Of a stretch of 42,000 nucleotides of DNA, positions 40,399-41,325 are shown in pieces. Made by a program: the position numbers and the translations under genes. The DNA is from Alistipes sp. (GTDB lineage: Bacteria; Bacteroidota; Bacteroidia; Bacteroidales; Rikenellaceae). Every line of letters begins with the position of its first letter. The first letter of the stretch is position 1. The notes beneath the pieces were generated by a model. It was not told the DNA's origin, did no database searches, and saw only the letters and a list, made by a program, of their open reading frames with translations. The stretch covers positions 1-42,000 of the forward strand of contig JAFXLG010000072.1 in assembly GCA_017531305.1 (NCBI GenBank). Reading direction: 5' to 3'.

Positions 40399-40435
40399 GT
40401 ATCTAAAGATTTACGTTTATTACTATAATATTTGA

Positions 40436-40443
40436 CAAAAATA
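40436..40443 (-). promoter_or_regulatory. Candidate -7 element of the ychF promoter
   Basis: TATTTTTG on the minus strand, 37 bases before the ATG. The -33 region reads TGTTT rather than TTTG. Confidence 0.5.
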
Positions 40444-40483
40444 CGAATTTTTCGGTAGAAACATTCATTTTAAACTCTAAATA

Positions 40484-40514
40484 TTTGTTGTTTCAAGAGT
40501 TTTACTTATATTTG
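40484..40514 (+). promoter_or_regulatory. Promoter upstream of the structured leader
   Basis: TTTG (40484-40487), 19-base spacer, TATATTTG (40507-40514): an exact Bacteroidales promoter, 282 bases before the next start codon. It predicts a long 5' leader starting near 40521. Confidence 0.85.
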
Positions 40515-40520
40515 CGGAGT

Positions 40521-40796
40521 AATCGCTAATAAAAATCAAGAAACTTAATTTTAAACAAACCTATGTTGGGGCATTTTGTGCCTTGGCTGAAGCGATTGTC
40601 GTTCTATACATGATAAACATTAAAGTGCGTCACTCAAGCGGTGATGCCAAGTTAAACATTCTCAAAAATTACGTTTTGCGGCTCGCATTGGAATGAGTCG
40701 CAAGTGGGTTCATTGACGTATTTGAGCCTTGAGATCGAGGGCGAGAGCTTTTGATCAACGGGAAAATTATGTTTAACTTTTAATGTTTATTAAATC
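40521..40796 (+). ncRNA. Long structured 5' leader or ncRNA of unknown type
   Basis: Complementary segments imply an ordered fold. P0: AATCGCT (40521-40527) with AGCGATT (40591-40597), enclosing a GGCA/TGCC hairpin. P1: ATAAACATTAA (40613-40623) with TTAATGTTTAT (40780-40790). P2: GCGTCAC with GTGATGC (40627-40633/40641-40647, one G-T). P3: AAGTTAAACAT (40649-40659) with ATGTTTAACTT (40769-40779), directly next to P1 on the 3' side. P4: TTGCGGCTC arm (40676-40684) with GAGTCGCAA (40695-40703). P5: CCTTG with CGAGG (40727-40740). P1 and P3 share the AAACATT/AATGTTT core and could exchange partners. P1 ends 6 bases before the ATG. It does not match a riboswitch class I can name. Confidence 0.6.
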
Positions 40797-41261
40797 ATGA
40801 AAAACAAAAATTCTAAGCTCGTCACAAAATTGATGAGCGAGTCGGGTACGCCCATCTATTATGCACCAGCAGCATCGACATCTGGTAATGGCGTAAAAAT
40901 CTATCGCTACGCATTTGAAAAACTCTGCATGGAGTACAAACGTCAGATTGACGAGGCGGAGTCGCCCATTAGGCAGGCAATCCTGCGACACGAATGGGCA
41001 ACATTCATCCGCGAGCATGTAGAGAATTACAGCGGTAACAAAAGATTCATGAGGGAGCTGGCGAAGTACCTCGAAAAGGAATCTATGGCTGGAGTAAAGC
41101 AGGAGTTCCGCCGAATCAACACCAGCATACACTCGGCAAAGAATTGCCACCGCATAACAGACCTCTGGCTCTATGAGCAACGTCTGGCGGAGATGACGGC
41201 GATGTGTCCTGCATCGCTTCTGGATCAGATCTATGACCATCGCAATACGTGGGTAGCCTAA
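40797..41261 (+). CDS. Orphan 154-residue protein behind the structured leader
   Basis: I do not recognise this soluble, basic, mostly helical protein. The N-terminus is polar (KNKNSKLVTKLMSESGTPIYYAPAAS begins it in two parts), followed by helices with LCMEYKRQIDEAESPIRQAIL, HEWATFIREHVENYSG and FMRELAKYLEKESMAGVK. The end has WLYEQRLAEM and DQIYDHRNTWVA. There is no signal peptide or TM segment. It is a monocistronic unit: exact promoter, approximately 275-base leader, gene and terminator. The length of the leader suggests post-transcriptional control of this gene. Confidence 0.75.
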   Translation: MKNKNSKLVTKLMSESGTPIYYAPAASTSGNGVKIYRYAFEKLCMEYKRQIDEAESPIRQAILRHEWATFIREHVENYSGNKRFMRELAKYLEKESMAGVKQEFRRINTSIHSAKNCHRITDLWLYEQRLAEMTAMCPASLLDQIYDHRNTWVA

Positions 41262-41265
41262 CAAA

Positions 41266-41305
41266 AAATCCCCATCCTTGATTTTACTCAGGGATGGGGA
41301 TTTTT
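41266..41305. terminator. Bidirectional terminator between convergent genes
   Basis: Perfect 12-bp stem (41266-41277 with 41292-41303) with ATCCCCATCC/GGATGGGGAT, T-run on the plus side and A-run on the other, so it can serve both the orphan gene and the lipoprotein gene. Confidence 0.92.
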
Positions 41306-41325
41306 ATTTACGCACAAAGCTACGG

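Follow-up and report, generated by a model that had tools for sequence, protein, structure and literature searches.

A covarying leader RNA with a ribosomal-type boxA upstream of an orphan gene in some members of the genus Alistipes

In the 42,000-nt stretch of Alistipes DNA analysed here (the window; contig C56 of a 2.05-Mb assembly in 72 contigs), the ATG of an orphan gene is preceded by a leader of about 275 nt (40521-40796, coordinates verified against the sequence). We find that this leader is a new covarying cis-RNA family which, among the 180 genomes of the genus and the 295 genomes of the order that were searched, is limited to some members of one genus. The original prediction of an undescribed, structured 5' leader is thus borne out, both by the fold of the window copy (z -4.7) and by homologous leaders, which lie upstream of the gene at all 14 loci where it occurs. 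The most conserved stretch of the leader, GTTCTTTGACGTnTTTGAG, had escaped that prediction: it is the ribosomal boxA of the genus.

Architecture and covariation of the leader

A Bacteroidota-type promoter (TTTG-N19-TATATTTG, 40484-40514, plus strand) can be read in the sequence directly upstream of the leader, exactly where it had been placed before. Upstream DNA is available for 13 loci, and 11 of them, the window among them, show the arrangement: TTTG-N19/20-TAnnTTTG lies directly 5' of the leader, with a spacer of 19 nt in ten loci and of 20 nt in one; it was not found at L013 and L025. The count leaves out L004, the nearest relative of the window (an Alistipes sp. MAG from dairy cattle rectum), because its contig begins within the leader. 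Downstream of the gene, an inverted repeat followed by a T run (41265-41306, plus strand) was recognised by eye as terminator-like; the automated scan does not list it, its loop exceeding the limit of the scan. Terminator-like hairpins with T stretches were likewise seen by eye 3' of the gene in the window, L014, L017 and L025. The lysA gene lies downstream in six of the 14 loci, with a promoter-like site of its own in L021 and L022, the two that were inspected. Given these lysA sites and the terminator-like hairpins after the gene, promoter, leader, gene and terminator-like repeat probably form one monocistronic unit, as far as can be read from the sequence. The divergent neighbour is ychF in the window and in ten of the 13 other loci. 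In genome G001 (L086), whose YchF is 94% identical to that of the window, ychF and lysA are separated by 244 bp without the leader-gene cassette. That junction carries a promoter-like site.

The window leader folds at -85.8 kcal/mol, against -62.7 +/- 4.9 kcal/mol for 200 dinucleotide shuffles, none of which reached its energy. Over the 14 loci, folding z-scores range from -1.95 to -5.8 (60 shuffles each); no shuffle folded as well in ten loci, one did in each of L014, L020 and L023, and three did in L017. All elements of the leader lie on the plus strand. In the fold, a separate upstream hairpin, P0 (40565-40587), with an AUU(R/U)UG-like apex, is followed by P1, which encloses the hairpin P2 (40627-40647) and the helix P3; P3 in turn encloses an anti-boxA strand, the hairpin P4 (40675-40704), boxA and the hairpin P5 (GATCGAGGGC / GCTTTTGATC, 40733-40756). 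P1 and P3 are perfect 11-bp helices: ATAAACATTAA (40613-40623) is the perfect complement of TTAATGTTTAT (40780-40790), and AAGTTAAACAT (40649-40659) pairs with ATGTTTAACTT (40769-40779). Their 3' strands abut, that of P3 ending 17 nt and that of P1 only 6 nt before the ATG, so that P1 does reach the region just before the start codon. The two long helices, the local hairpins between them and the upstream hairpin had all been proposed beforehand, and all are borne out, the two helices by the sequence and the hairpins by the minimum free energy (MFE) fold. The distance from the end of P3 to the ATG is 14-17 nt in all 14 loci. P3 is present in the MFE structure of all 14 cores and of 13 of the 14 full leaders (the exception being L020), and in the full MFE structure of nine of 13 loci P1 comprises at least 8 pairs between the tail and DNA upstream of P3.

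In a plain MAFFT alignment of the leaders, the paired fraction is 94.9% for P3, three pairs of which have changes in both strands, and 43.7% for P4; RNAalifold finds only 17 pairs. The covariation score and the number of double-change cells of this alignment exceed those of all 500 shuffles, and the number of paired cells exceeds all but 2. The number of double-change pairs (15, against 12.8 in shuffles; 87 of 500 as high) and that of further pair types (75 of 500 as high) are unremarkable. As the alignment fails to align P4 and P5, we relied on strand-swap tests, in which the strands of a helix are exchanged between species and it is asked whether each strand fits its own partner best (20,000 permutations). 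L019 was left out as a copy of L004, and tests needing the 5' part were run on 13 loci, L004 being cut off within the leader. The resulting counts are not strict probabilities, because anchors were set by eye and the species are related.

For P1, cognate strands sum to -93.9 kcal/mol, against -65.5 +/- 5.9 kcal/mol after swapping, and none of the 20,000 permutations was as good (13 loci), a result which holds when two near relatives are removed. Three negative controls paired the P1 tails with other regions: 14,001 permutations were as good with the first 110 nt of the gene, 8,819 with the 110 nt upstream of the promoter and 19,471 with the leader interior. Species by species, P1 stands out clearly from tail shuffles (at most 16 of 500 as good) in five of the 13 loci (window, L018, L021, L022 and L025) and is unremarkable in the other eight. 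No permutation was as good for P3, nor for P5 (14 loci, unchanged without three near relatives). Compensatory changes are therefore present in the homologous leaders, and P1, P3 and P5 covary. The pairing of the anti-boxA strand with boxA was equalled by 31 of 20,000 swaps and by none of 500 shuffles of the anti-boxA region, and that of the two halves of P0 by 173 of 20,000 (12 of the 14 loci). P4 has z-scores of -1.0 to -4.6 (14 loci), and P2 is statistically the weakest helix (z -2.65 to +0.47, 13 loci).

Distribution of the RNA and its gene

The orphan gene (40797-41261, plus strand) encodes a basic protein of 154 aa (pI 9.2) with the motif YYAPAASTSGNGVKIYRYAF. A profile search detects relatives in 14 of the 180 genomes of the genus, its own counted, and, among 198 genomes of the order, in its own genome only. 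The 13 homologues without in-frame stops are 146 to 206 aa long, all of them basic (pI 8.4-10.1), and share an invariant core, Y-A-P-x-A-S-T-x-G-x-x-V, near the N terminus. Comparison of the window gene with that of L004 gives a dN of 0.08 and a dS of 1.14, so the gene encodes a protein under selection; the codons of the motif vary at synonymous sites. Searches of Pfam, NCBIfam, PHROG and PDB returned no believable relative and no recognisable RNA-binding domain; a weak match to MamY (best E 0.001, one member) was taken as chance. Each carrier has one match to the protein profile, except genome G120. There, in-frame stops interrupt the gene at one locus (L023, contig C86), whose leader retains P3 together with a diverged boxA, and a second, C-terminal fragment of nearly identical sequence (L026, contig C114; E 1.9e-6) lies near a contig end, where it is perhaps a duplicate in the assembly. 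Short reading frames starting at the P0 apex differ between species in both start codon and peptide (by eye), so a leader peptide looks unlikely.

A covariance model of the RNA, R1, matches 20 of the 180 genomes of the genus at E <= 0.1, and of the 295 genomes of the order only that of the window. These searches used the stricter Infernal filters, under which only the best first-look candidates are scored, so weak relatives may be missed. The 14 carriers of the protein score at E 7.2e-15 or better, by construction since they built the model. The six weak matches outside these 14 (E 0.001-0.09) do not resemble a second case: L071, L072 and L074 are matches of 67-71 nt and, as does L075, lack GTTCTTTGAC, L073 is a different boxA leader, and L076 (E 0.088) is an rRNA leader. 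R1 also scores the opposite strand in four of the 14 loci (E 0.0017-0.041), which can happen with a hairpin RNA that is nearly palindromic; the strand is fixed by the promoter and the gene. Within these filtered searches, RNA and gene thus appear to travel together. A mobile element was considered and rejected, as there is a single RNA match per carrier genome and the window protein has no relatives in phages or plasmids (a search of viral contigs with the protein profile A5 gave no match).

Comparison with Rfam, which had been suggested at the outset, yielded no known family for the leader. No family reaches its gathering cut-off there in a search of the whole window; positions 40400-40900, searched to E 10, give one chance match, to CRISPR-DR49 (17.3 against 41 bits), and the loci L015, L017, L021 and L025 give only a tRNA, outside the leader, in L017. 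No tRNA or tmRNA was found in the window. In the literature searched (most subscription journals lying outside its scope), we found neither a description of the leader RNA nor boxA control of protein genes in Bacteroidota. In a human-microbiome RNA survey, an Alistipes motif is mentioned that precedes L20 and not the gene studied here (PMC8040213).

The ribosomal boxA and the strand facing it

The window boxA, GTTCATTGACGTATTTGAG (40708-40726, plus strand), was identified by its match to the 16S-leader boxA of the genus, and a boxA is conserved upstream of the orthologues at all 14 loci. The 16S-leader form is GTTCTTTGA(A/G)GTATTTGAG; a 16S start motif follows such sites by 112-122 nt in ten loci, and an Rfam search confirms SSU or LSU rRNA at the loci L028, L029, L033 and L038. 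A wider pattern, GTTCTTTGACRTNTTTGAG, with one mismatch allowed, occurs in 55 of the 180 genomes of the genus, against 4 of 180 for the backward-read control; many of its hits have the 16S-leader form. We compared the 14 mRNA leaders with 15 script-collected rRNA-leader copies, 12 of which have the 16S start motif in reach; the contigs of the other three (L045, L049 and L056) stop less than 102 nt or at most 102 nt from boxA, and these copies were included for the context of their leaders. No rRNA-leader boxA was found in the 14 carrier assemblies, and the leader boxA was matched against other genomes of the genus. By majority, the two consensuses agree at 17 of 19 positions and differ at base 10 (C in the mRNA leader, not A/G) and at the variable base 13. 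C at base 10 is also found in the boxA of a 16S-23S spacer in genome G087 (GTTCTTTGACATGATTGAG). Contigs C1 and C3 of that genome carry the boxA variants GAAGTATTTGAG and GACATGATTGAG, 1,741 nt apart; on C1, GACATGATTGAG sits in the 16S-23S spacer, and the mRNA leader has the spacer-type base 10.

The leader boxA thus shares a 19-nt core, GTTCTTTGA.GTnTTTGAG, with the rrn leaders and spacers of the genus. These differ in their surroundings: none of the 16 rrn-type copies examined has TTAAAC in the 110 nt upstream of boxA or GTTTAA in the 200 nt downstream, the two sequences being the cores of the P3 strands. In the 14 carrier genomes, a scan gave 15 boxA matches, 14 of them in the leader and one elsewhere in G014. 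A NusB gene was found in 13 of the 14 carriers, the missing one being a genome that is 57% complete. The window and L004 share a T-to-A change at the fifth base of boxA, in its core, which may weaken or abolish Nus binding in the window copy. The shared change may mark a weakened or altered site. Other bases deviate in L015, L023 and L025.

Upstream of boxA, CTCAAA followed by TACGT (40661-40674, plus strand) forms the anti-boxA strand, which can pair with the 3' half of boxA. Exact CTCAAA precedes boxA in seven of the 14 mRNA leaders and in two of 16 rRNA-type copies. The anti-boxA helix is part of the predicted fold in eight of the 14 loci (L004, L013, L015, L016, L017, L020, L024 and L025) and lies outside it in the other six (window, L014, L018, L021, L022 and L023); it is weak in L016, L022 and L023 (-4.2 to -5.7 kcal/mol). 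In the MFE fold of the window, a local boxA hairpin takes its place, whereas the nearest relative, L004, has the helix.

Candidate modes of control

That boxA is the most conserved part of the leader points to Nus factors rather than to a metabolite. In E. coli, NusB and S10 bind the boxA of nascent rRNA (PMC5725501, PMC10250234), and for Gammaproteobacteria it is documented that boxA can also control protein genes: in E. coli suhB and in a ParE-like toxin gene of Citrobacter koseri, a boxA in the 5' UTR mediates Nus-dependent repression, and that of suhB recruits Nus factors and lowers translation, for which it needs the full Nus complex (PMC5725501). The Alistipes leaders resemble these two in having a ribosomal-type boxA in a protein-gene leader outside rrn. 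They differ in that boxA lies within a covarying multi-helix RNA, with the anti-boxA strand paired in eight of 14 predicted folds, in that the genus belongs to the Bacteroidota, and in that the orphan gene is no known Nus factor. The distance also differs: the end of boxA lies 69-112 nt from the ATG, beyond the 50 bp from the start codon to which the search in PMC5725501 was limited. As the suhB boxA remains active when as many as 100 nt are placed between it and the Shine-Dalgarno sequence, that limit is a search convention and not a functional one (PMC5725501), and the distance seen here may be tolerated. By its parts, then, the leader appears to work like a boxA leader and is a candidate member of that class.

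Our preferred reading, which we hold to be about evenly balanced between right and wrong, is that of an mRNA leader controlled by NusB-S10, which would link expression of the basic orphan protein to the Nus machinery of transcription. Judging from the sequence, Nus factors would bind the leader boxA. NusB-S10, riding on RNA polymerase, would compete for the emerging boxA with the anti-boxA strand, which has by then already been made upstream. If the anti-boxA helix forms, P3 and P1 would close over the region before the ATG; if NusB-S10 wins, the boxA domain and P3/P1 would fold differently or later, with altered access of ribosomes to the A/T-rich region 5' of the ATG and, through this, altered Rho-dependent termination. 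In Bacteroidota, translation initiation is not known to require strong Shine-Dalgarno pairing. Expression of the gene would then track how much free NusB-S10 is available and, with it, the demand for ribosome synthesis, and repression upon Nus-factor binding, by analogy with suhB, is a first guess. In leaders without a predicted anti-boxA helix, the window included, the competition would have to depend on some other pairing (the local boxA hairpin, for instance), or there would be none. A more specific version, which we think rather unlikely, is a Nus-factor sensor: the leader would mimic an rRNA leader, hide its boxA behind the anti-boxA strand and report free NusB-S10, and the product of its gene would act as a partner, specific to this lineage, of the rRNA antitermination complex, so that a feedback loop resembling that of SuhB would be closed in Bacteroidota.

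Within the literature searched, a covarying RNA combining a ribosomal boxA with an anti-boxA strand would be the first hint of a switchable boxA. If the leader is indeed a boxA leader, it would tie an orphan protein family to ribosome synthesis, and it offers a ready RNA on which the action of the Nus complex in Bacteroidota can be tested. Lambda nut, put and LoaP sites are RNA elements near a promoter that act through Nus factors or RNA polymerase; the leader is like them in this respect and differs from them in that a single 0.5-kb gene follows a long structured leader.

Among the alternatives, an autogenous leader, in which the basic protein would bind P3/P5 or the P3-P1 junction and repress its own translation, with boxA as a part of the fold or a second input, is unlikely but the one that survives best. 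Autoregulated ribosomal-protein leaders likewise combine a structured leader, a single gene family and a basic product, and the one-to-one co-occurrence of RNA and protein in all 14 carriers, the basic character of all 13 proteins compared and the conservation of the P3 sequence itself, as expected of a protein site, fit this idea. The orphan leader differs from those leaders in that it has no Rfam match, its product is no known ribosomal protein and boxA is present; autogenous control, moreover, leaves a 19-nt ribosomal boxA as the best conserved stretch unexplained and must do without a recognisable RNA-binding domain in the product.

A metabolite riboswitch, whose multi-helix fold with P1 before the ATG would bind a small molecule, is suggested by the architecture (a long-range P1 ending close to the start codon, a multi-way junction and a conserved junction sequence) and by the covarying helices. 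The conserved junction sequence, however, is the ribosomal boxA; no Rfam riboswitch matches, and the leader is tied to one gene family only, an orphan that is neither a transporter nor an enzyme. Nor does lysA help: it follows in six of the 14 loci, but where this was inspected (L021 and L022) it is preceded by a promoter-like site of its own. We consider this explanation improbable.

The same low probability is given to a trans-acting RNA, either a NusB-S10 sponge or another non-coding RNA, with the gene as a passenger. A single-copy, structured, boxA-bearing RNA with its own promoter could act in this manner, and sequestration of its boxA would mirror rRNA control. Against it, the P3-ATG distance is constant, there are no strong RNA matches without the gene in the 180 genomes of the genus, and the terminator-like repeat follows the gene, none being listed between leader and gene in the scan of the plus strand. 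The independent non-coding RNA which the original prediction had kept as an option is thus made unlikely by the strict co-occurrence of RNA and gene and by their constant spacing.

The strand exchange proposed earlier as a built-in switch, in which the P3 5' strand (TAAACATT, 40653-40660) displaces the P1 strand for AATGTTTA (40782-40789), is very improbable: the exact 8-nt complement does exist in the window, but its duplex (-5.6 kcal/mol) is weaker than either P1 (-11.5) or P3 (-10.6) there, eight uninterrupted pairs between these strands occur in none of the 12 other loci tested, and pairing of the P3 5' strand with the tail before the ATG is no better for cognate than for swapped strands (-32.3 against -33.8 +/- 4.8 kcal/mol; 12,408 of 20,000 as good, 13 loci), so that the complement stands as a feature of the window and not as a conserved switch.

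Further boxA sites were seen in other genomes of the genus. At about position 1501 of L027 (G023:C17:2891-2909), a perfect boxA, GTTCTTTGACATGTTTGAG, comes right after a promoter-like site. Small ORFs follow, and we take one of them, by eye, to resemble a microvirus replication initiator; this boxA stands at the start of a possible prophage transcript. On the minus strand of L073 (G071:C6:93088-93106), a boxA leader lies 82 nt before a 148-codon ORF, which is followed by a second, similar-looking ORF and a helicase-like gene (by eye); from its sequence, this would be another boxA-bearing mRNA leader. Finally, in L036 (G110:C4:46437), GTACTTTGACGTATTTGAG lies 62 nt before a small ORF, and the identical 19-mer is found in G129 and G084; the site perhaps marks a further boxA-led gene in the genus.
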